Origin: a virus
Reading direction: 5' to 3' (one strand)
IMG/VR virus record: IMGVR_UViG_3300028596_000626
Span: 1-28,377 of that record
Length of the DNA stretch: 28,377 bases
Position numbers and translations under genes: made by a program. Each line of letters starts with the position of its first letter. Position 1 is the stretch's first letter. Under the pieces are notes generated by a model. That model worked only from the letters and a program-made list of their open reading frames with translations. It did not search any database and had not been told where the DNA came from. Positions 8,354 to 24,935 of this stretch are shown one piece after another.

Positions 8354-9019
8354 TTATGCGTACTGCCTGCGCTGAGGGTCAAGAGCCGACAACAGCCCCT
8401 GCCCATTCCCTGGCTCGTCATCCGGCTCCGGCGCCCCATCACGACGGCACACCAGCGCGTCCGGGTCATACGACGGAGCCTGCAAGCTGTAGCCGTCCGG
8501 ACAGGCAGGACCGGCCGGACCCCGGTCGCCCGTGTCGCCCTTCTCCCCCTCGGCCCCAGCGGGACCGGAAGGACCGTCCGGCCCGACAGGACCAGCGGGC
8601 CCCGGCACCGTCGAGTCCGCGCCGTTCCGCCCCGCAGGGCCCGTCGCGCCCGGGGCCGGTGTGATCGTCGGAGCGGCGACCCCCGGATCGCCCTTGTCAC
8701 CCTTGGGCCCCGGCGGGCCCGGGATCGGCACCGGTACTTCTGCCCGCGCGGGCAGATCCTCCACCGCCTGCGTCGGATCCGGCGCAACGGGCGTCGCACC
8801 TTCCGCCTTCACCTGCGCCCGAAGCGCCCGCACATCCCCCGCCAACGTCGACACCGCCGTACCCCGCAGGTCAGCCTCACGCGCCAGGTCCTGCCGGGCG
8901 TCCGCCTCCCGGTGGATGAGGAGCAGCGACAACGCCACCCCGCCGCCGAGGATCAGCAGTGCAGCCACCATCCACAGCAGGCGTCGGTTCTGATATAGCA
9001 CCAGCTCGGTCCGCGTCAT
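8354..9019 (-). CDS. Collagen-like membrane protein of lysis module
   Basis: 221 residues from the ATG at 9019, which overlaps the previous stop by ATGA. One membrane helix lies at about 13-36, with a short charged N-terminus inside the cell. A short coiled-coil-like stretch (about 38-72) follows, then a Pro-rich linker and Gly-X-Y repeats at about 101-112 and 124-171 ([29 protein letters not shown]). The tail carries two cysteines (C173, C191), probably disulfide-linked outside. This predicts a trimeric, membrane-anchored rod extending into the wall. Collagen-like repeats are known in phage fibres; here the gene is last in the lysis module. A role in lysis, wall anchoring or host surface change is open. 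It ends with TAA. Confidence 0.85.
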
Positions 9020-9303
9020 GGCGCGCCTCCGAGCTGCGTGACGAGCCCGCGCAGCCGTGAGACCTCCGCCTCCAGCGCGGACACCTTCGCCTCCGCTGCC
9101 GACGCGCGCGCCTCCGCGGTCTTCTCGTCCATCTCCGCCTTGTCCCTCTCGGCCACCAGCCGCTGCGTCAGGCTGTCGTATCCCGTCACCGCGCTGGTCT
9201 CCCTGGCCGCCCGGTTCGCGCCGCGGTTGCCGTACATGGCGGCGGCCGCGGCCACCGGTCCGGCGATCAATGCGCCGATCGCCGTCAGCACGGCCGCGTC
9301 CAC
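9016..9303 (-). CDS. Small membrane protein, holin-like or accessory
   Basis: 95 residues from the GTG at 9303, with a very strong GGGGAGGTGG upstream. One N-terminal hydrophobic helix (about 3-24, [20 protein letters not shown]) is followed by a long coiled coil (about 45-88). One helix plus a cytoplasmic or external coil fits a second holin, an antiholin or a spanin-like partner. It lies between the four-helix holin and the collagen-like gene and overlaps the latter by four bases. The exact role is inferred from position. Confidence 0.8.
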
Positions 9304-9339
9304 GCCACCACCACCTCCCCGACGCGCTCACGGGTCAGC

Positions 9340-12523: not shown

Positions 12524-15373
12524 TCACAGCGAGACGATCGTCGGATAGGCCAGCCGGATGTCCTCGCCCGCCACCTGGGCTTTCGAGACCCCGTTCACCG
12601 AGCGCGTCACCGTGAAGATCTGCGGCAGCTGAAGGTCGAGGTTGTCGTAGGACACGATGGGGTTGACGTTGCTGTTCGCGACGTCGGAGATCGACCGCAG
12701 CCCGAAGAACGGCGAGTTGGTGAGCGCGGAGTCCGATGCCGTGATCTGCCACTCCGGGGTCTCAACCGCCGACGCCAGCCACGCCTTCGCCCGCAGCACA
12801 GCGCCACGCCCCTGGAACCGCACCCGGTAGAAGGTGCCAGCCACGTAAGCGTCCGGCAGGGCATACGTGCCCAGCGTCGTCTGCACGTCGTTCACGCGCT
12901 TGCGGATCGTCAGGCTGAGCGTGTTGGCCGTCGTGAACTCCAACTGCGCGGTGTACATGTTGCTGCTGTCCACGTAGCGGGCAGCCAAGCCACCGTTCAG
13001 GGAACCGCCCGTCGCGGTCGCCGAGGTGGTGATGCTGCCGTAGAAGTCGAAGTCGCTGTACGCGGTACCGCCGTCGATGAACGACCGGCGGGACGCGCCC
13101 GTCGTCGACAGCGTGTGCCCGCCGGCGCCGGACGCCACGTTGAAGTCGCCGGCCACCCCGCCCGCCGTCGACCACGTCTGCCCGTTGTCGGAGGTGCCCC
13201 AGCCACTGGACACGCTCCGCGTGAACGTGTCGTAGAGGAAGCTGCTGATGTCGGTGACGGTCATGATTTCGCCGCCGCACCGCACCTGGAACGGGAACTC
13301 GGCGTCCGTCGTCGTCCAGCGGGCGTAGTCCGTCGTCGACGGCGTCACCACCAGCTCGGTGTCCGCAGCGTCCACGGCGAGGAGCAACGCCGACCCGTCC
13401 GTGTCGACGCGGGCCGCATCCTGGTCGAGGACGCCCACCAGGTAGGGGGAGGCTGGCGCGCACACGAAGGTGATCACATGCTGGAATTTGGTCAGCGACC
13501 TTGGGTCGATGCCGAGGATGATCTGGTCGATCGCCCCCGGCGGCAGCCACGCGGGCGGGTTCTGCACCTGGATCCGGTCGCCCTGCCGCAGCCCGAGCAC
13601 AGCCTGTTTCAGGGCCGGGTTGTTGACGAAGCTGTCGCGCGCCAGGTTCACGCTGATCTTCGGGTAGCGGGGTTCATCGACCGTTCCCATGTGGACGCGC
13701 CACGCCGCCTGACTCGCGCCCTGCCCCGACGAGGACAGGTTCAGGGTGACCTCGCTGCCGTACACCCCCACCCCAGTCGGCGGGAGCTGCACGGACAGCG
13801 GGCCGTCCGTCGCCTCGTAGGTCGCGCTCACCCCGGACACCGTGACGGTCACCTTGTTCGCGATGTACCGGTCGTCCTCCACCGGCGTCGGAACATCCTC
13901 CGAGAGGTCGTTGCCCACGTAGTCCAGCACCAGCTGCGGGTCCTGGTTGCACAGGGCGACCCGGGTCCGGTAGCCGATCCCGCCGCGCGCCTCGTACAGC
14001 ATCCCGCCGTCGGCGAGCTCCGCCTCGCGGAAGTGCGTCAGTGCGTTCTGCTTGGGCTGCGCGCCCATCGCGACCGTGTCGTCCAGGTCCCCGATCCACT
14101 CGAACGGGATGCCCTCCTCCGCGCACAGCCGCTGGATCCGGCGCCCCGCAGTCTCCCCGACCGGGTTGAGGTGGACGCCGAGGAGCGTGACCGGGGTAAT
14201 CGTGTCCTCGACCGTGACGTGCCCGATCGCCACATCCGTCAGCCCCGACGTACCGATCGGACCCACCGCCGACCGCGAAGCCGGACCGAACTGGACCTGA
14301 GTGACCCGGGAAACGCCCGCCGCGCCACCGTCCGAGACGTCATACGAGCGCTGCTCGGTCAGGTCGTACAGGCGCAGTGCGCGGGTGATGACACCGCCGC
14401 TGTCCTGCAACTCGATGCTGACGTACAACTGGCGGCCGCGGACGTCGAGCGTGTGCGCCAGCTCGAAACCCAACAACGCGCCGTCGCCGTCGCACTGGCG
14501 GAGATACAGGGTGGTCCCGGTGGTGGTGTAGAAGAGTTCCCAGAACAGGGTGCCGCCAGTGTCCTCCTGGTCGACCGCGCAGATGACCTTGCCGTCGGTC
14601 AGGCCCTCCGCCGGAATCCGCACCAGGAACCGGACCTGCGTCATCGTCGGCTCGCTGTACCTCGCGACACCGCCCGTCAGCACGTTGCCCGCCATCAGGA
14701 CCACCGGATCCGCCGCGGCAAAGTCGTCGTAGCCCGCCAGCGTGGGCGTCCCGGTGAACGTCATCGGCGACCCGGAGACCAGCGGCGACGCCAGCGTCGT
14801 CGACCCCGTCGTGTCCTCGCACGGCCAGTACGCCCGCAGGTTCGACGACAACGGCTCCGTGATCGCGGTGCGCATCACCGAGTACGGCGGCGGCGGGGCC
14901 TGCGCGAGCCGCCACATCGGACCCGAGACGGTGACGTCCACCCACACGTCGTTCCCCGACCGATCCCAGGACGGAGCCCACGAGGTGACATCACCCCAGA
15001 TCACATAGGTTTTGCCGCCGACGCCGTCCGGGACGCTGATCCGCATCGGGGTGTTCCGGCCGATCGCCCCGTAGTAGGGGCCGGACGGATTCCGGGGGCT
15101 GAAGCGGGCGTCGTCGTTGCGCAGTTGCAGGCGGGCCACCGCGAACTCGGCCGAGGCGCCCTCCGACCGGATGCCGCTGGTGATCTCGACCTTGCCGTTG
15201 TCGTCCCGCACCATGCAGTACGACGTGATGTCCAGCCACTCCCCGCGCACCCACAACTCCACGACGACCGGCTCGCCGCTGGACGCCTCGCCGCCTCCGC
15301 GAGCACCGGGCCCGGGAAGGTTGGCAAGACGACGGCGGAACGCCGAGACGAAAGGCGCGATCGGGGTCGGCAT
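12524..15373 (-). CDS. Minor tail/hub protein with carbohydrate-binding-like domains
   Basis: 949 residues. Residues 35-155 (VELWVRGEWLDITSYC, then LQLRNDDARFSPRNPSGPYY) and 395-650 form the conserved actinophage minor-tail core that binds the tail end. A LamG/concanavalin-like domain is inserted at about 178-395 (LRAYWPCEDTTGSTT). At about 710-917 a second lectin-like domain (YDTFTRSVSSGWGTSDNGQT) interrupts a short C-terminal module: GGEIMTVTDI lies before it and QIFTVTRSVNGVSKAQVAG after. It acts outside the host as part of the baseplate or tip, probably contacting wall or surface glycans. It follows the tape measure and a small tail protein, the normal order for siphovirus tails. Confidence 0.9.
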   Translation of the reverse strand: MPTPIAPFVSAFRRRLANLPGPGARGGGEASSGEPVVVELWVRGEWLDITSYCMVRDDNGKVEITSGIRSEGASAEFAVARLQLRNDDARFSPRNPSGPYYGAIGRNTPMRISVPDGVGGKTYVIWGDVTSWAPSWDRSGNDVWVDVTVSGPMWRLAQAPPPPYSVMRTAITEPLSSNLRAYWPCEDTTGSTTLASPLVSGSPMTFTGTPTLAGYDDFAAADPVVLMAGNVLTGGVARYSEPTMTQVRFLVRIPAEGLTDGKVICAVDQEDTGGTLFWELFYTTTGTTLYLRQCDGDGALLGFELAHTLDVRGRQLYVSIELQDSGGVITRALRLYDLTEQRSYDVSDGGAAGVSRVTQVQFGPASRSAVGPIGTSGLTDVAIGHVTVEDTITPVTLLGVHLNPVGETAGRRIQRLCAEEGIPFEWIGDLDDTVAMGAQPKQNALTHFREAELADGGMLYEARGGIGYRTRVALCNQDPQLVLDYVGNDLSEDVPTPVEDDRYIANKVTVTVSGVSATYEATDGPLSVQLPPTGVGVYGSEVTLNLSSSGQGASQAAWRVHMGTVDEPRYPKISVNLARDSFVNNPALKQAVLGLRQGDRIQVQNPPAWLPPGAIDQIILGIDPRSLTKFQHVITFVCAPASPYLVGVLDQDAARVDTDGSALLLAVDAADTELVVTPSTTDYARWTTTDAEFPFQVRCGGEIMTVTDISSFLYDTFTRSVSSGWGTSDNGQTWSTAGGVAGDFNVASGAGGHTLSTTGASRRSFIDGGTAYSDFDFYGSITTSATATGGSLNGGLAARYVDSSNMYTAQLEFTTANTLSLTIRKRVNDVQTTLGTYALPDAYVAGTFYRVRFQGRGAVLRAKAWLASAVETPEWQITASDSALTNSPFFGLRSISDVANSNVNPIVSYDNLDLQLPQIFTVTRSVNGVSKAQVAGEDIRLAYPTIVSL

Positions 15374-15898: not shown

Positions 15899-18800
15899 CT
15901 ACCTGTCTCGTTGCCCGAGGGCGTTCTGCACGTTGCCGCCACGCCCGCGGATCAGCTCACGCAGCGGCTCGAATGTCTGCTGGGCGACGACCTTCCCGTC
16001 GAGCGTGATCGTCTGATGCACGATCACCGTCTGCGCGCCGCCCACGGCCGTGGCGCCGCCAGCTCGGCGCGGGGCGTTGAGCATCGACGCCCACGGCGCC
16101 GCCGCCTTCCGCTGCGAGTCCGGGTTCGACCACACCCGCGCCCCGGCCGGCAGATCCAGCAGCTCCGGCCCCTGCTCGCCCACCCACGTGAGGCCGCCCC
16201 GCACACCACCGGACGCGGCGCCGCCGATGATCCCGCCGGCCGCCTTCTTCCCCGGCGCCCGCGAGATGACCTTGTCGAGGTTCTTCGCCAGGCTGGCCAT
16301 CGTCGCTTCGAGCTTGTCCTGGCTCTTCTGCAACCGGCTCGTCGCTGCGGTCTGCGCCTTGATCGCCTGTCCGTACACCGTGTCCGCGGTGGTCTTCCCT
16401 GCGGCCGTGGCTGCCGACGTGATCTGCCCCTGAAGGGAGTTGATCGCCTTGATGTCGTTCGAGCCCGCCGTCATTAGCGCGCCCGCCGTCTCCAGGCCGC
16501 CGCCCTCGATACCCGCCTCGGCGATCTGCCGGATCAGCGACGACGACAGGCCCTTGCTCTTCAGGCTAGTGAGGGCCTTGGAGAACGCGGTCGCCTTGTC
16601 CCGGTTGTCGGTCAGACCCTGGAGGATGCCACCGACGGTGACGTTCTTGCCCGCGTTGCCGCTGGTGATGTTCGCCGCCGACAGCACCCCCGACTTCACC
16701 GACGACGACAGCTGCGACGACGCTGACTTGAGGTCCTTCAGCTTGTCCTTCGCCCCGTCCAACGCCTTGTTCACGCTGGTGAGGGACTTCTCGTGGGCCA
16801 TGAGCTTCTTGCCCACCGAGTCCAGCGTCCGCAGCAACCTTGCCTCGGTACCCCCGGACGTCTTGTCCTTGATCCGGGAACGGACGTCGGACAGCGTGGA
16901 CTTCAGCGAGGACATGTCCGACGGCGAGCTGAGCCCCTTCATCTGTCCCTTCGTCAGGCCGCCGCCCGCGAACCACTCCACGTTGCCGCCGAGGATCCCC
17001 ACCGTCTCCTCGGCGACCGCCCGGGAACGGGGCCGCTTCGCCGGGCTGAGCGGGATGTACGCCTCGCCGCCCGTCTCCGGCTCCGCCCACATGCGGAACG
17101 TAGGCTGCGCGATCTGCGCAACATGCTGCTCCATGCCGCCGTCCGCGTAGGAGCGGCCCGCGTAGATGTTGCCGTCCGCCGAGCGACCCGCCGTCGACCC
17201 CAGGTAGGTGCCAGACGCGACGTTCGGGTTGCCGCGGATCTTGTAGGTGGTGACGACGTATGTGTTGGCGGTGCGCCCGTTGAGGTTGTTCAATGCGGTC
17301 GACACCGCGCCGATGTTGCCGAGCGACTGGCCGTTCGCCGTGTACACCCTGGTGCTGCCGTCAGGTAGCTGCTCTGTCTTCAGGCCGACCGCCTCCAGCG
17401 CGGCGATCGCCGCACCGTTCAGCGTCGACACCGTCACCTCGTGCGAGTCCGGTGTGGCCTGGATCGCGGTGCGCACTTCCTCCAGCCCGGTGATAGCCTC
17501 CTCGCGCTCCAGCTTCACCAGCGTCGCGATATCCGACGGCACGCCGAGCAGCGTGTTCACGTACTCCTCGGCCTTCTTCTTGTTTCCGTCGAAGGCGTCG
17601 ATGGCCAGCGCCATCATCGACTCGCGCAGCTCGGACGACTTCTTCGTCATCGACCCGAGCGACTCGCCCGCCGCGACGCCGGCCGCGATGAACTCGTCCT
17701 GCGACTTCGCCGCCGCGGACATGGCCTGCCCGTTCGCCCGGCCGGCCTCCGTGTTCAGGTCGAGGGTGGCGCCGTTCTTCTCGAAAGCCGCCGAGAGGCT
17801 GTCGAGCGATGCCTCGAACCCGATCTGCGCGTCGTAGGCCGACCTGTTGGTGTCGTTCAGGGCGAGGATGCTGGCGCGCAGCCCGTCCGCCGACTGCCTC
17901 TGCGCTTCCAGCGTTGCCGATGTCGACTGCGCGGCCGCGCCGAAGACACCCATGCTGTCGGCCGCAAGGTCCTGCTCGAACTTCACGTCGGCGAGCGCGC
18001 TGTTGTAGCCGTCCATCTGCGACTTGAAGTCGGCCGCCTTGCCGCCGCCGTCGACGTACTCCTTCGACAGGCGGGCGAACGCGGCCGCAGCCATGTCGGC
18101 CTTGCCGCCGCGCACGAGGTTGGTCAGGCCCTCGTCGATGCCCTTCAGCCGGTCCTCGGCCTCGGAGTGCGGCGTCGAGTCGGCCATGCCGAGGGAGAAG
18201 ACCTTGACGAGTCCCTGCTGGATCTTGTCGGTGGTGGACGGGTCGCTGATGTTGCGGACCGAGTCGTACAGGCTGTCGAGGTCCGAGCCGAACAGGCGGG
18301 CCGCCTCGCCGCTGGCCTTGCCCGTGCGGCCCAGCTGGCCGAGGCTCGTGGTCAGCTTCTCCACGTTCGGTGGCGCCTCCCGGCCCACCTCCGCCAGCTT
18401 CCCGAACGCCACCGCCACCGCGGCCACACCGGCCACCACGATGCTGGCCTTCGCCGCCGTGCCCAGAGACAGAAACGCAGCCTTCAACCCCGCCAGCCCA
18501 CCGCCCGCCGCAGTCGACACAGCCGACAGCGCGGTGATCCGGGCTCCGAGCGTCGCGATCCCACCCGAGACGGCCGCAGCCCCCGCGCCCGCCACCGTGA
18601 CCAGCTTCAGCGCGACCGCAGTCTGCATCAGCACGGTCACCAGCTCCGGCGGCAGCGACGCCACCAGATTCGCCGCCGCGTTCACCAGCGTCAGCATCCC
18701 CGGCCCCGCGTCCGCCGCAGCCTCCACCAGCGTCGACACCGCATCGGCCATGTTGCCGAGCGTCTCCCGCAACGCGGGCCCGTTCGCCTCGGCGTACTCC

Positions 18801-19567
18801 ATGAACGCCTGCACCGGGCCACCCGCAGTACCCTCGGACAGCGCCCGGGAGAAGTGGATGATCCCGTCGACCGCGCCCTGCAACGACTCGTTCGCGAACG
18901 TGCTGATCTTCTCGGACAGCTTGTCGAACCCAGGCGACGCCATCGCCCCGCCCGCCACCGTCACCAGCCGGTCCAGCTGCGACGACGCACCCTTCACCAT
19001 CGGCGTCAGCTTCGGCAGCAGCTGCCCCAGCAGCGTGAAGCTCTTCTCGACCGGGACCATCGTGAACGAGGCCAGCTCGTCCGACCACCCCTTGGTCTCG
19101 CTCTTGAGGGTGCCCATCGCCACCGCGGCCCGCGCGGTCGCCTGCGGCATCGACGCCAGCGAATCCGACAGCGCGCGCTGCGCCTCGGCGGCCTGCTTGC
19201 TGCCGCGCCCGTGCTGCGCGACGGCGTCGTTGTACTTTTCCTGCGCCTTCGAGGCGTCCGACAGGTGGCCCGCCTGCCCGGCCACTGCCGCACCGAACGC
19301 CGCCACGGCGAGGCTCGCAGCGCCGGCCTTGACCGCGATCGGCGCGAGCGCCGCGCCGAGCGGCACCGCGGCCGTGGCCAGCGGGATGATCGACCCCTTG
19401 ACGCCGCCGATGGCCGCGGACAGCCGGTTCATCGAACCGGTCATCGCCGAGCCCTCGGTGATGAACCGGCCGCGCATGTCCCGCAGGCGGCCCTCTGTGT
19501 CGCGGAACGCTCGGATGACGTCGCCGTTGTCGGCGCGGATAGTGATCGTTACATCGTCGCCGGTCAT
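15899..19567 (-). CDS. Tail tape measure protein
   Basis: 1222 residues, the longest gene of the window. It starts at the ATG at 19567, overlapping the end of the frameshifted chaperone. The N-terminus is an Ala-rich coil (KAQEKYNDAVAQHGRGSKQA). Hydrophobic segments lie at about 60-97 and 305-395, as expected for a protein that inserts in the host membrane at DNA entry. Long Lys/Ser/Ala coils follow, and the C-terminus has a Gly-rich GGIIGGAASGGVRGG with GEQGPELLDLPAGARVW, a motif usual in tape measures. It sets tail length and is ejected at infection. At about 0.15 nm per residue the tail would be roughly 180 nm, which is an estimate. No lytic transglycosylase motif is evident. Confidence 0.95.
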   Translation of the reverse strand: MTGDDVTITIRADNGDVIRAFRDTEGRLRDMRGRFITEGSAMTGSMNRLSAAIGGVKGSIIPLATAAVPLGAALAPIAVKAGAASLAVAAFGAAVAGQAGHLSDASKAQEKYNDAVAQHGRGSKQAAEAQRALSDSLASMPQATARAAVAMGTLKSETKGWSDELASFTMVPVEKSFTLLGQLLPKLTPMVKGASSQLDRLVTVAGGAMASPGFDKLSEKISTFANESLQGAVDGIIHFSRALSEGTAGGPVQAFMEYAEANGPALRETLGNMADAVSTLVEAAADAGPGMLTLVNAAANLVASLPPELVTVLMQTAVALKLVTVAGAGAAAVSGGIATLGARITALSAVSTAAGGGLAGLKAAFLSLGTAAKASIVVAGVAAVAVAFGKLAEVGREAPPNVEKLTTSLGQLGRTGKASGEAARLFGSDLDSLYDSVRNISDPSTTDKIQQGLVKVFSLGMADSTPHSEAEDRLKGIDEGLTNLVRGGKADMAAAAFARLSKEYVDGGGKAADFKSQMDGYNSALADVKFEQDLAADSMGVFGAAAQSTSATLEAQRQSADGLRASILALNDTNRSAYDAQIGFEASLDSLSAAFEKNGATLDLNTEAGRANGQAMSAAAKSQDEFIAAGVAAGESLGSMTKKSSELRESMMALAIDAFDGNKKKAEEYVNTLLGVPSDIATLVKLEREEAITGLEEVRTAIQATPDSHEVTVSTLNGAAIAALEAVGLKTEQLPDGSTRVYTANGQSLGNIGAVSTALNNLNGRTANTYVVTTYKIRGNPNVASGTYLGSTAGRSADGNIYAGRSYADGGMEQHVAQIAQPTFRMWAEPETGGEAYIPLSPAKRPRSRAVAEETVGILGGNVEWFAGGGLTKGQMKGLSSPSDMSSLKSTLSDVRSRIKDKTSGGTEARLLRTLDSVGKKLMAHEKSLTSVNKALDGAKDKLKDLKSASSQLSSSVKSGVLSAANITSGNAGKNVTVGGILQGLTDNRDKATAFSKALTSLKSKGLSSSLIRQIAEAGIEGGGLETAGALMTAGSNDIKAINSLQGQITSAATAAGKTTADTVYGQAIKAQTAATSRLQKSQDKLEATMASLAKNLDKVISRAPGKKAAGGIIGGAASGGVRGGLTWVGEQGPELLDLPAGARVWSNPDSQRKAAAPWASMLNAPRRAGGATAVGGAQTVIVHQTITLDGKVVAQQTFEPLRELIRGRGGNVQNALGQRDR

Positions 19568-20120
19568 GGGGCGTCATCTCCTTCCGCGGGGTCGGGGTCG
19601 TCGGGTGTGCCGAGGCGTTCGATGCTGAGCAGGCGCAGCAGCCGCACGTCTTCTTGGAGCAGGGTGGTCAGGGTGTAGCCGGGGAACCGCTTGAGGAGAC
19701 CGAGGAGCGAGCGCGCCTCGATCAGCTCGCCCGGCTCTCCGACAACGGAGCCATCGGGATTTCGAGCACCTCCGAGGTGCTTCCAGAGGTGGAGCTTTCG
19801 GGCAAAGGGTCGGAGCTGTGGACCCCCACAAGTGCCTGAATCCACGCACTGTTCAGGGCGAGGATGAGCCGCTTGTCGCGGCTATGCGCCTCGCTCACGG
19901 GGATGGGCAGGTCCTGGCTGTCGGTGAGGTTCCAGCTCACGAGCGCCTTGAAGAAGCGCTCCAGGGTGGCGCCGTCGGTGTCGCCGCCGTTGCCGTCCCA
20001 GCCCATCGCGACGGCGTACTCGTCGATGGTCATGGAGCGGAGCGTCGCTTCGAGGCCGTGGTAGCGGTGGCCGTCCTCGAAGCGGACGGTGACGGTGCTG
20101 TCGGGCTCACGGAATCCCAT
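19564..20120 (-). CDS. Tail assembly chaperone, -1 frameshift product (gpGT-like)
   Basis: Fusion product made when ribosomes slip back one base at CCCTTTG (plus-strand 19803-19809). It shares the first 106 or so residues with the short form and then continues in the -1 frame as ARKLHLWKHLGGARNPDGSV, ending in an acidic PDDPDPAEGDD tail at 19564. The -1 frame has no good start codon of its own in the right place and ends four bases into the tape measure gene. In lambda-type phages the long form binds the tape measure and the tail tube to direct assembly. Order, frame direction and heptamer all agree with this. Confidence 0.88.
19722..20120 (-). CDS. Tail assembly chaperone, unshifted product (gpG-like)
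   Basis: 132 residues from the ATG at 20120 (MGFREPDSTVTVRFEDGHRY). The body is a small helical domain (RSMTIDEYAVAMGW, ATLERFFKALVSWNL). The tail beyond the slippery site, ESSTSGSTSEVLEIPMAPLS, is used only without frameshift. It is the abundant form that coats the tape measure during tail assembly and is absent from mature virions in related phages. It lies between the small tail-tube-like gene (two bases away) and the tape measure. Confidence 0.88.
   Translation of the reverse strand: MGFREPDSTVTVRFEDGHRYHGLEATLRSMTIDEYAVAMGWDGNGGDTDGATLERFFKALVSWNLTDSQDLPIPVSEAHSRDKRLILALNSAWIQALVGVHSSDPLPESSTSGSTSEVLEIPMAPLSESRAS
19765..19809 (-). other. Programmed -1 frameshift site with downstream stem
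   Basis: On the minus strand the heptamer C CCT TTG (19803-19809) is in the chaperone frame and fits X-XXY-YYZ exactly, so both tRNAs can re-pair on CCC TTT. A stem AGCACCTC/GAGGTGCT (19765-19781) begins 21 bases after it, further than the usual 5-9, so its role as stimulator is uncertain. Confidence 0.85.
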
Positions 20121-20122
20121 GG

Positions 20123-20530
20123 TCAGCTCCAGGTGGGGACGGCGCCGTTGGCGAGGGAGAACGGTGCCGAGTACGTGAACTCGCCGGACTGCGCGCGGGT
20201 GAGCGCGTAGTCGGTGATGAGGCACTCGTTGTTGAGGGTCTGGCCGGAGATGACGATGCCGATGCTCCGGGTCACCGACGTGGAGCCGACGGTCTTGAGG
20301 ACGTCGTGCGCCAGGTTGGACCCGTCGTCGAAGACGCCGTTCATCGTGCCGCTGAAATCTGCGAGGAGCAGGATCCGCTCGATCGCGGACTTGTCGATGC
20401 CGGTGGCGTCCTGGACGCCGCGGGGCATGGACCAGTCGAGGTTGGTGACGTCGTTGCGGATGTCGCGTGCGTTGCCGCCGGAGTCGTCCACGTTCAGCGT
20501 GGTCCACCCGAGGCCCGATTCCTTTGCCAT
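20123..20530 (-). CDS. Tail-tube-like protein, short form
   Basis: 135 residues from an ATG. The segment DATGIDKSAIERILLLADFS (about 41-60) closely matches VTGIDKSAYERVGLLRDG in the larger protein at 21008-22396, so the two are paralogs. The protein is a beta-rich fold of the phage tail tube type (SVTRSIGIVISGQTLNNECL). Being right before the chaperone pair, it occupies the classic place of the major tail protein. I think it is the tail tube subunit. Which of the two paralogs forms the tube cannot be told from sequence alone. Confidence 0.82.
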   Translation of the reverse strand: MAKESGLGWTTLNVDDSGGNARDIRNDVTNLDWSMPRGVQDATGIDKSAIERILLLADFSGTMNGVFDDGSNLAHDVLKTVGSTSVTRSIGIVISGQTLNNECLITDYALTRAQSGEFTYSAPFSLANGAVPTWS

Positions 20531-20561: not shown

Positions 20562-20996
20562 TCAGCCGCGGCGGCGGTCCTCGTTGAACCGGCCAAGCTC
20601 TTCCTGCACGTTCTCCACCCAGTCCTGCGCCCGCGTGTGCACGCGCCGCCGGCCGGTGGGGTTGCCCCGGAAGTCCCCGTCGCGGACGAGGTACAGCTCC
20701 GGGCGCGTCTTGTGGTCGGCGAAGCAGCGCTGACCCGAGTCGAACCGGAACGCTGTCAGGCCGTCGCCACGCGGCATCTCGCGGAAGGTTCGCCCCGACT
20801 GCTGCCGGATGTACGCGGCCTGCGCCTGCCCGAGGTCCGTGCGCTCGTCAATGACGGACTCCCAGCCCTGCCGCCACTGCTCGCAGCTGATCTCCTCGCA
20901 CACGGTGCGGACTGCCTGATCCGGGCGGGACCGGATGCTGAACGTCTGGTACGCCTGCACCGGGCCCTGCGCCGGAAGACGGAACGGATCACCCAT
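20562..20996 (-). CDS. Conserved actinophage protein with CxxxxxC
   Basis: 144 residues from the ATG at 20996 (MGDPFRLPAQGPVQAYQTFS). It has VCEEISCEQWRQGWES near residue 33, a SGRTFREM segment, and a RCFADHKTRPELYLVRDGDF segment before a charged C-terminus. I recognise this as a recurrent Streptomyces phage protein between the two tail genes, but no function is known to me. The cysteines at about 34 and 40, with Cys and His in the central segment, could bind zinc. A longer open frame on this strand up to 21332 is not likely to be used, as it would overlap the large tail gene. Confidence 0.82.
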   Translation of the reverse strand: MGDPFRLPAQGPVQAYQTFSIRSRPDQAVRTVCEEISCEQWRQGWESVIDERTDLGQAQAAYIRQQSGRTFREMPRGDGLTAFRFDSGQRCFADHKTRPELYLVRDGDFRGNPTGRRRVHTRAQDWVENVQEELGRFNEDRRRG

Positions 20997-21007
20997 CGCA
21001 CACCCCC

Positions 21008-22396
21008 TCAGAAGCTCGTCGCGGTCAGGTTGGCCGTCGCCGCGACCGCGAACACCAGGGACGTGAATCCCCCCGTCGTCACCGTCACCGCCCGGACATA
21101 CCGTTTGATCTCCGTGCCCGCAGCGATCGCGATCCGCTGAGCCGTCGGCCCGGCCGTGATCTGCGTGAACCCGCCGCCTGTGATGTCGGCGTACGCGTCG
21201 GTGCCGCCGTTGTCGTGGGAGTGCTGCAACTTGACCGTCACATCGGTGCCGGCGAACGAGAACACCTGTAGGTACGCCTGCCCGCCGTGGACCGTGTGCG
21301 AGCTGATGTAGGCGTTGCCCTGCTTCGTCCATGTCCGCGGCGTGGCGTCGGTGACCGTGTTCGAGGATGCCGATGCGATGGGCGCGGCCACCGACGTGCC
21401 GCCGATCCCGGAGAGCACCGACCCTTGGAAGAACTTGCCGGCCGTCCGGTTCACGGTGCCCGCGGTCTGCGAGCCGATCTCCAGGACTGCCGTCGACGCG
21501 AACACCGAGGTGGTGGCGCCGTTGAGCTGCTGAACACCGAGGGCGGTCCAGGTGGAGCCGTCCTCGCTGGTGTAGAAGTTCACGGCGGCGTCGGAGGCCC
21601 CGTTGTCGACGTCGAGGGTGGCGCGCACCCAGTGCGTGGTCCCGTTGGTGAACCCGGTCGTGGCACTGGACGTTTCCGTCTTCTCCGCCGTGCCGTTCTC
21701 CGACCAGCGGAAGATCAGCGCACCCGTAGCGGTGACCGCGAGCGCATACGACCTCTGGTTGCCGGTCGCCGTGTACTTCGCGATCAATGTCGACTCCGAC
21801 GCTGGCGTCCAGTCATCCAGCGCCACGCGGGCCCGCAGGTCGAGGTCGCCGACGATGTCCAGGCTCGCGGCGTCGGGCGTGGACGCGTAGTCACCGGACG
21901 TGCCGGACAGGAACAGGAAGTCCTCGCCGTCGTAGCCGAACTCCACTCCGGTCCCACTCGCCGCCCCGGTGTCGGTGCGCTGTCCGGCGGTGAGGAGATC
22001 GCACCACTCCAGGCCGTAGCCGTTGGCCTGCGACGACACGCTGATCGTCAGCGAACCGTCCTGGCCCCGGGTCGGGTTGTAGTCGATCTGCTTGCCGACC
22101 ATGCACGCCGCGGGAGCCCCGAGGCTGGTGGCGGTAGCCCACATCTCGTGCCGGTCGGTGGTGGGCAGCGCGGACAGCACGGGGTGCGCGGCCGCCGCAG
22201 CCGGGTTGAAGAACGACGTCCAGGACAGGCGGCCGTCCCGGAGCAGGCCCACCCTCTCGTAGGCGCTCTTGTCGATGCCGGTGACATCCTGTGTTCCGGC
22301 GAGGCCGCAGCCGATTTCGTTGCCGGCGCCGGTGTCACCGGACAGGTTGTAGCCGCCCAGGTAGAAGTTCTGCGCGAGGCCACTCTTCTTGGTCAT
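21008..22396 (-). CDS. Large tail-tube-like protein with inserted LamG-like domain
   Basis: 462 residues from the ATG at 22396 (MTKKSGLAQNFYLGGYNLSG), which shares a base with the preceding stop. Residues 1-150 carry the tube-like part, including the VTGIDKSAYERVGLLRDG motif shared with the short paralog. At about 157-358 there is a LamG/concanavalin-type domain (DYASTPDAASLDIVGDLDLR, HWVRATLDVDNGASDA). After it, residues 371-452 resume a conserved beta domain (AYLQVFSFAGTDVTVKLQHS, then RYVRAVTVTTGGFTSLVFAV). The lectin-like cassette thus sits inside a tail protein. It may decorate the tail and bind host surface sugars; that role is inferred. Confidence 0.85.
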   Translation of the reverse strand: MTKKSGLAQNFYLGGYNLSGDTGAGNEIGCGLAGTQDVTGIDKSAYERVGLLRDGRLSWTSFFNPAAAAAHPVLSALPTTDRHEMWATATSLGAPAACMVGKQIDYNPTRGQDGSLTISVSSQANGYGLEWCDLLTAGQRTDTGAASGTGVEFGYDGEDFLFLSGTSGDYASTPDAASLDIVGDLDLRARVALDDWTPASESTLIAKYTATGNQRSYALAVTATGALIFRWSENGTAEKTETSSATTGFTNGTTHWVRATLDVDNGASDAAVNFYTSEDGSTWTALGVQQLNGATTSVFASTAVLEIGSQTAGTVNRTAGKFFQGSVLSGIGGTSVAAPIASASSNTVTDATPRTWTKQGNAYISSHTVHGGQAYLQVFSFAGTDVTVKLQHSHDNGGTDAYADITGGGFTQITAGPTAQRIAIAAGTEIKRYVRAVTVTTGGFTSLVFAVAATANLTATSF

Positions 22397-22854
22397 CAGG
22401 CCCCCTGAGCCCATGCGTCGTTGATGATCAGCGGGATGGTGAGCGTGGCCACCCGGTAGGTCGTGGAGTCGAAGCGCGTGAAGCCGAACTGTGCGGACAG
22501 CGGCGTCCCGTGCGCGCCAAGCAGGTCGACGTTGCGGACGCTCCCGCCGAACTCGAAGTCGGCCGAGTACGCGGACATCAGACTGTCGACCGCGCCCGTC
22601 ACCGCGATGTCGACGTCGTCCTCGGGCTGACTGTCGGCAGGCATGAACACCCGGCCGGTCAGCTCCAGCCGGCCGGTGCCCGCGCGCAGACCAGAGGCTG
22701 CCGGGACGGGTGAGATCCGGGAGACCCACAGGGCGTAGACCAGACCGGAACCCGGTGCGGACACTGGTTCGTGGCCGAGGACCTGCGTGAACAGGCCGAG
22801 GGTCTGCGCGTGCGACATGGCCACGCCGCGGTAGGTGAGGAGATCGAGGGCCAC
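22396..22854 (-). CDS. Tail terminator or neck-like protein
   Basis: 152 residues from a GTG at 22854, six bases before the upstream gene's stop. It has a mixed alpha/beta pattern with LFTQVLGHEPVSAPGSGLVY, a central beta hairpin (GRLELTGRVFMPADSQPEDD) and LTIPLIINDAWAQGA at the end. Its place between the HK97 gp10-like gene and the tail-tube genes is that of a tail terminator that ends tube growth and joins head and tail. Assignment rests on size, predicted fold and order. Confidence 0.7.
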   Translation of the reverse strand: MALDLLTYRGVAMSHAQTLGLFTQVLGHEPVSAPGSGLVYALWVSRISPVPAASGLRAGTGRLELTGRVFMPADSQPEDDVDIAVTGAVDSLMSAYSADFEFGGSVRNVDLLGAHGTPLSAQFGFTRFDSTTYRVATLTIPLIINDAWAQGA

Positions 22855-23238: not shown

Positions 23239-24300
23239 CTACACCGCCCTCGTGCGGGCCTTGCGGCCGTGGCTGGTGTACACGCGGTCCCGAAGCTGGA
23301 TGATGCCGCGGCCTGCCACCTCGCGCTCGGACTCGCCTGCGCCCGCGGTGCGCGCATATCCGGAACGGCCCTGCATGAGGTCGACGAGGGCCTCGGCGAC
23401 GCACAGTTGCCGGACGGGGCCGGGGGGGTCCCACCGGTACACCGGCGCTGCGGTGAGGTGAGTGGCTGCGGTGGTGCCGAGCGCACCCCGCTCCACGGTC
23501 AGAGTCCGCGGGGCGTAGATGGTGGCACCGACGCTGTGCGCGGCGATTGTGGAGCCGTCCCACGCCCGCGTCACCACGAGGGTGTTGCCTGCGATCTCAT
23601 CGACCCGCATCCGTTCGCCGTCGATGAGGATGGACTCGCCGGCCGCGAACGCCGTCCCGGACTGCACGGTGACGGTGACGGAGTTGTTGGTGTTGGTGAG
23701 GCCGCTGCCGCCGAGGGTCTGCCCGGTGTCGAGCTGCGTCCGGCCGGTGACGATGACCCGCTCCGAGTCGATCCGCAGCAGCGAGCCGACGCCGACTGAG
23801 GCGGAGGTGGCGGCATCGACGTCGATGCCGGTCTCGCTGCTGTCGAGAGCCTCGATCGTCGCGCCCACGCTGGTCTCGTCGTTGCGGAAGTTCCACAGGC
23901 CCGCAATACCGACGTCCTCTTGGTACGTGGAGCCGCCGCCGAAGCTGGCGTTGCCGCTGAGATCGATCTCGATACGCGTGTAAGGAGGCTCGTCCCTATT
24001 GTCGGCGCGGCGCAGCAGGTAGTCGCCCGGCGCGATCGTCGTGCCGCCGGAGGTGACGGAGGTGACGGAGATCAGCTCGTTGTCGTCCAGACGCAGGATC
24101 CACGGCGTGGCGCCCTGCCGCGGCGGCCAGTCGAAGCGCCGCGTCGCGACCACCGGGTAGAACACGCGGTGCAGCAAGCCATGCACCGACTCGGTCGCAT
24201 CAGCGAGGGCCCGGTCGATGCGAGCGTTGCTGCGCGCGGTCTCCTTGACGTCAAGTTCGGCCTTGATCTCTTCACGTGTGGCGTACCACGGGGTGGTCAT
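23239..24300 (-). CDS. Head-tail adaptor with inserted beta modules
   Basis: 353 residues, long for an adaptor (usual gp6-type length is about 100-200). The N-terminal helices (about 5-45, ATREEIKAELDVKETARSNA, then RALADATESVHGLLHR) match the head-tail connector family that binds the portal. Residues 165-272 hold two related beta modules: GSLLRIDSERVIVTGR, and GESILIDGERMRVDEI with VTRAWDGSTIAAHSVG. The C-terminal helix region (298-340, LCVAEALVDLMQGRSGYART) completes the adaptor fold. The start has a strong AGAGGAGGTGA. It would close the capsid exit channel and accept the neck proteins encoded downstream. Confidence 0.83.
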   Translation of the reverse strand: MTTPWYATREEIKAELDVKETARSNARIDRALADATESVHGLLHRVFYPVVATRRFDWPPRQGATPWILRLDDNELISVTSVTSGGTTIAPGDYLLRRADNRDEPPYTRIEIDLSGNASFGGGSTYQEDVGIAGLWNFRNDETSVGATIEALDSSETGIDVDAATSASVGVGSLLRIDSERVIVTGRTQLDTGQTLGGSGLTNTNNSVTVTVQSGTAFAAGESILIDGERMRVDEIAGNTLVVTRAWDGSTIAAHSVGATIYAPRTLTVERGALGTTAATHLTAAPVYRWDPPGPVRQLCVAEALVDLMQGRSGYARTAGAGESEREVAGRGIIQLRDRVYTSHGRKARTRAV

Positions 24301-24338: not shown

Positions 24339-24935
24339 TCAGGTGCCGACGGCCATCCATGGGCCGGCCAGCAGGGAAGCGGAGTTGGATGCGGGTGTGA
24401 TCGAGGCGGGCAGCGACGTCTGTGACGTGCCTGCGGTGGCGTACCGGTAGGTAGCAGGCGTCAGCCCCGCGTTCAGGCTGGTGGTGGCCCCTGCCGCGCC
24501 GGCGCCGTAGGCGACGGTGGGTTTGGCGGTGGCGTTGAAGACGAGCGCTCCCCACACGAAGCTTCCGGCCGTCAGCGCGGTGGAGGCGATCGTCAGCGTT
24601 TGGAGGCCCGCGCTCGCAGTTACTGTGGCGTCCGCGTCAGCGGTTACCAGGCGCGTGCCGGCCGAGCTGTAGAGGCCACCGAAGTTCTGCCCGGCGGTCG
24701 TGCCGCTCCCGGCGACGGCCATCCACCAGTACAGCTTGGTGACGCTGACGGTCTGCGTGATGTGGAGTTTGGTCAGGTAGACGGTGCCGCCGGTCAGCTC
24801 GATGACGTTGACGGCCAGCGACGGATCGTAGGTCCAGGCCACCAGGTTCTGTGCGGCTGGGGTGACCTGGCCGTTGGCGAAGCCGGTGACCTGCTGGTAG
24901 CCGGTGACGGTCGAGTTGCTGCGGTAGAGAGGCAT
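24339..24935 (-). CDS. Beta-rich virion protein, hypothetical
   Basis: 198 residues, with long Thr/Ala/Ser strands (TVYLTKLHITQTVSVTKLYW, then LQTLTIASTALTAGSFVWGA) that predict a single beta-sandwich or jelly-roll domain. It is encoded between the adaptor and the decoration-type genes behind the capsid gene. It could be a head fibre or other surface protein; no catalytic motif is visible and I do not recognise a named family. Confidence 0.75.
   Translation of the reverse strand: MPLYRSNSTVTGYQQVTGFANGQVTPAAQNLVAWTYDPSLAVNVIELTGGTVYLTKLHITQTVSVTKLYWWMAVAGSGTTAGQNFGGLYSSAGTRLVTADADATVTASAGLQTLTIASTALTAGSFVWGALVFNATAKPTVAYGAGAAGATTSLNAGLTPATYRYATAGTSQTSLPASITPASNSASLLAGPWMAVGT

Follow-up and report, generated by a model that had tools for sequence, protein, structure and literature searches.

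A siphophage tail-tube paralog with an internal LamG-like domain and its undecorated partner: candidates for a decorated tail made from two genes

The tail tube of phage SPP1 contains short and long subunits (gp17.1 and gp17.1*) mixed 3:1, and the outer domain of the long form, which is dispensable, has been proposed to contact host carbohydrates (PMC8718954). In the lactococcal 936 phages, immunogold labeling of MTP-TpeX marks a spiral along the tail (PMC4759559), and the isolated TpeX domain binds host cells (PMC6669499). A third arrangement is that of T5, where each repeat built by pb6 has a pair of tube domains and a single outer domain (PMC8718954).

We found a variant of these decorated tails, known from a few other phages, in an IMG/VR virus record of 28,377 bases (hereafter the window), whose tail genes are on the minus strand and whose host is probably a Streptomyces-like soil bacterium. 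The variant consists of TubeA (21008-22396, minus strand; open reading frame with an ATG start), a 462-aa tail-tube paralog with an internal LamG-like domain, and TubeB (20123-20530, minus strand), a 135-aa undecorated tail-tube protein that lies one gene downstream and was assigned from its model and structural matches.

As with gp17.1 and gp17.1*, short and C-terminally decorated tube subunits would occur side by side, but the long form of SPP1 arises by a frameshift from one gene and ends in an FN3 domain, whereas here a separate, diverged gene encodes a LamG-like domain and then a cement-type jellyroll. The likeness to MTP-TpeX lies in lectin-like modules that sit on tube subunits and vary among related phages (PMC4759559, PMC6669499); in the 936 phages, however, a BppA-like C-terminal module is added by +1 frameshifting where the same gene ends, whereas the module in TubeA is internal and belongs to a second gene. 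Hence, since TubeA and TubeB are separate genes, the long form does not have the frameshift origin seen in SPP1 and 936, while what is shared with these phages is a carbohydrate-binding-type domain on a tube domain, predicted from its fold to be LamG-like here and from sequence to be CBM4/9 in relatives. The T5 arrangement would be alike if TubeA and TubeB share rings, although T5 has both tube domains in one polypeptide (PMC8718954) and the window has them in two genes. The preliminary description of this locus had called a tail studded with sugar-binding domains an unusual adsorption arrangement; this was only half right, as lectin-like tail decoration was already shown experimentally in 936 phages (PMC4759559, PMC6669499) and proposed in SPP1 (PMC8718954).

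In the window, as in 181 of 184 relatives, both tube genes belong to the tail block and precede the putative chaperone genes and the tape measure gene. The TubeA frame (22396-21008, minus strand) begins with an ATG that overlaps the stop codon of the upstream gene (TGATG). This upstream gene (22396-22854, minus strand) occupies the place of a tail terminator gene; for its 152-aa product, Pfam, NCBIfam and PHROG searches gave no above-threshold family match. An open frame for a 144-aa protein (20562-20996, minus strand) separates TubeA from TubeB, and family searches with it gave nothing better than E 0.069. In most relatives, the gap between the two tube genes (median 472 nt) has space for one gene like this one; in the Arthrobacter and Microcystis phages discussed below, the tube genes are adjacent, unlike in the window.

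Between the tube genes and the tape measure gene, we found a probable first frame of the tail assembly chaperone (19722-20120, minus strand), which overlaps a probable frameshift extension (19564-19845, minus strand) that reaches the start of the tape measure gene; the chaperone and terminator identities are taken from gene position only. The tape measure protein (15899-19567, minus strand) matches phrog_10780 (E 7e-9) and phrog_9228 (E 1e-7), and a 949-aa tail-tip type protein (12524-15373, minus strand) matches phrog_5313 (E 4e-154). Elsewhere in the window, an open frame downstream of the endolysin gene (8354-9331, minus strand) has collagen-like GPP/GPK repeats, and the 198-aa product of a gene among the head genes (24339-24935, minus strand) matches the tail fiber family phrog_14726 (E 1e-8). 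In the head-tail adaptor (23239-24300, minus strand), phrog_442 covers residues 6-98, and about 250 more residues, rich in beta type, are present.

Domains of TubeA

We modeled TubeA with AlphaFold2 from a 29-sequence alignment (mean pLDDT 62.6). In the predicted model, residues 1-142 (21971-22396, minus strand) align with solved siphophage tube proteins at Z ~12 and an rmsd of 2.1-2.4, and this fold match together with identity to TubeB defines them as the tail-tube domain. The TubeB model (mean pLDDT 76) likewise has tail tubes as its best structural matches (Z ~10), and a tail-tube fold is predicted for both the N-terminal domain of TubeA and TubeB. The 462-residue protein had been described as a paralog of the tail tube protein, which is borne out by 35% identity to the 135-aa TubeB over ~98 residues (E 7e-8).

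The middle part of TubeA (residues 156-365; 21302-21931, minus strand), delimited by profile, aligns in a low-confidence region of the model with C-reactive protein, PTX3, the neurexin LNS domain and the laminin LG domain (Z 8.7-10.7); its pLDDT is ~57-73 in the core and <50 at the edges. The same part matches phrog_5313 (E 1.3e-25), which comprises large phage proteins and has no named function. No Pfam or NCBIfam sequence model matches it, and searching PDB sequences with an alignment of the domain gave nothing meaningful (best E 0.56); hence, the LamG call is based on the fold and on the phage-family matches. Given the low model confidence, the lack of a Pfam or NCBIfam match and the match to phrog_5313, we call the domain LamG-like, that is, a predicted two-sheet jellyroll of the LamG/pentraxin kind. 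The preliminary description had set the domain at 21323-21928, which corresponds to residues 157-358, with the tube-like part before it and a conserved C-terminal beta domain after it; this placement agrees with the profile limits.

Conservation of the C-terminal beta domain, also claimed beforehand, was confirmed: across a set of 19 sequences, column identity averages 60%. These last 96 residues (367-462; 21011-21298, minus strand) are well modeled, with pLDDT mostly >80, and profile and fold both relate them to the capsid cementing protein of phage BPP-1 (PDB 3j4u_H): the profile match has E 1.3e-5, and the predicted model aligns with it at Z 11.4 and 22% identity. The Pfam Bbp16 model matches weakly in TubeA relatives. 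An Ig-like C-terminal domain, guessed from lambda gpV, was discarded, as profile and fold searches gave the BPP-1 protein instead. The BPP-1 cementing protein is a sequence and fold relative of the TubeA C-terminal domain, but it is a separate capsid protein, whereas in TubeA the domain is fused to a tail-tube domain. A tail-tube protein whose C-terminal domain is akin to capsid cementing proteins (BPP-1, Carin1) is an instance of head-to-tail domain reuse.

Exchange of modules at one TubeA junction

We collected relatives of TubeA by scanning viral contigs, bacterial genomes and phage records, and counted those in which both end domains were present, which gave 193 distinct proteins. Because some scans were seeded with insert-bearing proteins, this is a non-random sample as far as the insert counts are concerned: 157 of the 193 lack an insert and join the tube domain to the C-terminal domain by 10-29 residues, and 22 have a LamG-like insert of 222-226 residues. 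A single CBM4/9 domain (carbohydrate-binding family PF02018) is present in eight and a tandem double in one; the best single copy reaches E 7.7e-6 and the tandem E 2.3e-7, and some single copies fall short of the Pfam cut-off. Five proteins carry an 84-aa insert, an unclassified small beta domain. All insert classes occupy one and the same junction. The 84-aa insert (VVITGGTMTAVVINGVTVGTGAGTYTLPAGQSITLTYTVAPTW type) was seen in loci L144, L148, L151, L153 and L172.

For the LamG-like domain, comparison of the window with relatives gave dN of ~0.14-0.21 and dS of ~0.63-1.06, as under purifying selection. Hence, with the same junction used in 22 distinct proteins and with purifying selection, the insert is neither a chance event nor an assembly artefact. 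The tube can do without it, as most relatives have no insert.

The two ends of TubeA have different histories with respect to the insert. On a tree of 49 tube domains, the LamG-like domain requires six changes, and a single clade of LamG-bearing proteins is rejected (p-AU 1.3e-7), whereas on the C-terminal-domain tree the same 14 LamG-bearing proteins form one clade (95/89). In the window, the tube domain is nearest (89%) to a protein without the LamG-like domain, and the eleven nearest C-terminal domains all belong to LamG-bearing proteins. Hence, the LamG-like and C-terminal domains move together and have more than once been attached to different tube domains; the tube-domain tree rules out that all LamG-bearing TubeA proteins share a single line of descent, in favor of cassette exchange.

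Homologs of the LamG-like domain, 34-44% identical, are present in the tail-tip proteins of many relatives, which suggests the tail tip as a possible source of the domain. The window's own tip protein (12524-15373) was considered as the carrier of a second copy and rejected, as the profile finds no match there, though it does in the tips of relatives. CBM4/9 domains, recognized in relatives by their sequence at the junction that the LamG-like module occupies here, support a surface-binding role for this module.

The TubeA-TubeB pair

Pairing of the two genes is nearly obligate: a same-strand TubeB follows TubeA in 181 of the 184 loci in which the position is visible. Hosts of the pair range from Streptomyces to Chloroflexota, and those with genome matches include Streptomyces, Nonomuraea, Thermoactinospora, Catellatospora, Prauserella, Amycolatopsis, Kitasatospora, Herbidospora and Chloroflexota bins. 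Randomly sampled genomes yielded few prophages (2 of 396 in Actinomycetota, 1 of 301 in Chloroflexota), and Streptomyces genomes yielded 10 of 393. In one relative (L057:4661-6421), both tube genes are frame-broken, probably through sequencing error or as a decayed copy. LamG-bearing loci in Streptomyces prophages include those of S. alboflavus NRRL B-2373 and S. ossamyceticus NRRL B-3822. Among isolates, an insert-free pair is present in Streptomyces phage Dagobah, whose virion was shown by electron microscopy to be that of a siphovirus (PMC7650747).

Arthrobacter phages Ottawa (L083:5001-6185) and Kharcho and Microcystis phage Mae-JY09 (L084:4968-6092) have more distantly related pairs. The Ottawa pair, both genes of which are annotated as major tail protein, showed neither a LamG-like nor a carbohydrate-binding insert. 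PHROGs has one family for each partner (9522 and 10528), both named major tail protein, and the Arthrobacter pair matches them. Hence, with both partners bearing this name in other phages, annotation does not decide which is the main tube protein. Tandem tail-tube genes are also a feature of actinophages whose annotation lists two major tail proteins, such as Microbacterium phage Damascus (PMC11080557) and the Arthrobacter phages Ottawa and Kharcho, a likeness that for Damascus is one of annotation.

The likeness between TubeA and TubeB peaks at residues 36-53, with 53% within-genome identity compared to 16-34% elsewhere, and this segment is a low-confidence loop in both models. In tube proteins, a stacking loop joins ring to ring (PMC8718954). 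We infer that residues 36-53 are this ring-stacking loop, for which low model confidence is to be expected. The near-obligate pairing and the common loop support a tube that contains both proteins. One loop position co-varies between the partners, a hint that comprises two independent events only. Co-variation of the two loops was rejected as proof of contact, since its value exceeds those of all shuffles but does so outside the loop too, with relatedness uncontrolled.

TubeB is the more conserved partner, with shorter tree branches than TubeA. Window-type TubeA and TubeB proteins form two separate clades, which indicates an old duplication there, whereas the two proteins of Mae-JY09 cluster together (96/80), which points to a separate duplication or to homogenization. 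The two Mae-JY09 proteins have an identical 16-residue stretch (the EADVAESSTFGADWKQYV region). The fold matches of both models include the Hcp2-Hcp3 heterohexamer of the Bacteroides type VI secretion system (T6SS; PDB 9vne), a precedent outside phages for unlike subunits sharing one ring.

A proposed decorated tail from two genes

The reading that we favor, with a probability of about 55%, is that TubeA is a decorated subunit that co-assembles with plain TubeB and displays an exchangeable module that binds the host surface. The N-terminal domain of TubeA would pack into the siphophage tail tube alongside bare TubeB, and the module would be exposed on the outside at the end of this tube domain; in the window, it would be the LamG/pentraxin-like domain and then the capsid-cement-type jellyroll. 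A mixed tail of plain and decorated subunits would in this way be made from two genes with no frameshift. TubeA would be present in the tube in many copies with its module facing outward, and the displayed domains would probably bind host-surface glycans weakly and multivalently, aiding adsorption before the tip proteins engage.

Since TubeB is nearly always encoded beside TubeA, a largely bare tube may contain some decorated subunits, the rings may be mixed, or one ring may be decorated. Studding of the whole shaft with LamG-like domains, as first proposed for this protein, is plausible but unproven, and a single decorated ring is possible. TubeA may also be the minor component, since TubeB has the classic main-tube position next to the chaperones and is more conserved.

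For these same two reasons, the more canonical gene position of TubeB and its greater conservation, the most serious alternative to the co-assembled tube is a lone decorated ring close to the head. TubeA would then make one specialized ring or very few, such as a head-proximal, collar-like lectin ring beside the terminator, and TubeB alone would make the shaft. This would suit a TubeA gene directly after the gene in the terminator position and a TubeB gene ahead of the chaperones and tape measure, and there is a parallel in the 936 collar with carbohydrate-binding modules, whose gene is distinct from the major tail gene and lies upstream of it (PMC4759559, PMC6669499). We nevertheless consider such a ring unlikely, as the putative stacking loop is common to the TubeA tube domain and TubeB and as this domain aligns with ordinary shaft proteins (Z ~12). 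The parallel is also imperfect, since the 936 collar protein is predicted to be a BppU-like ring with a coiled-coil fiber and no tube domain (PMC6669499); at the N-terminus, where the neck passage structure protein of 936 would have its BppU-like ring, the TubeA domain aligns with tube proteins, although a list of fold matches does not rule out a BppU-like one, and the coiled-coil fiber is absent from the TubeA model, which has short helices only, all before residue 76.

Less probable again is that TubeA is the main shaft protein, with the whole tail studded by LamG-like domains and TubeB a minor tube component. A place directly after the terminator-position gene is usual for the major tail gene too, and insert-free TubeA proteins (245-267 aa) have the two-part layout of lambda gpV, a tube domain and an outer domain; however, TubeB is nearly always there, is better conserved and is next to the chaperones. 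The LamG-like domain might instead be structural only, stabilizing the tube or contacting other tail proteins without binding a host glycan. Many LamG folds serve protein-protein contacts, no binding residues could be assigned in the LamG-like domain, and the 84-aa inserts are small beta domains of no assigned class. This role is the least likely of all, since most relatives do without any LamG-like domain or other insert and others use the insert site for a carbohydrate-binding module (PF02018, E down to 2.3e-7); the homologs of the domain in tail-tip proteins also speak against it.

Beyond the co-assembly of TubeA with TubeB, we propose only tentatively a widespread class of siphophages whose tube has two components from paralogous genes, either as mixed hexamers (e.g. 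three TubeA and three TubeB, a two-gene counterpart of the duplicated T5 tube protein) or as interspersed rings of each, one component displaying a lectin or carbohydrate-binding cassette that is swapped between phages together with the cement-type jellyroll. In the open-licence literature, we found no account of a tail-tube protein with a LamG domain and no description of a two-gene arrangement with exchangeable lectin-like cassettes between tube and capsid-cement-type domains.

If the two genes do make a decorated tail, such tails would be encoded by a dedicated second tube gene too, and not by frameshifts alone, in an arrangement conserved from phages of Streptomyces to those of Chloroflexota. 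The glycan-binding part of the tail shaft would then be a cassette that is swapped while the tube domain in front of it stays constant. The arrangement may be the reason why several actinophage clusters have 'two major tail proteins' in their annotation, and it makes testable the idea that long-tailed phages build their tubes from two unlike subunits.
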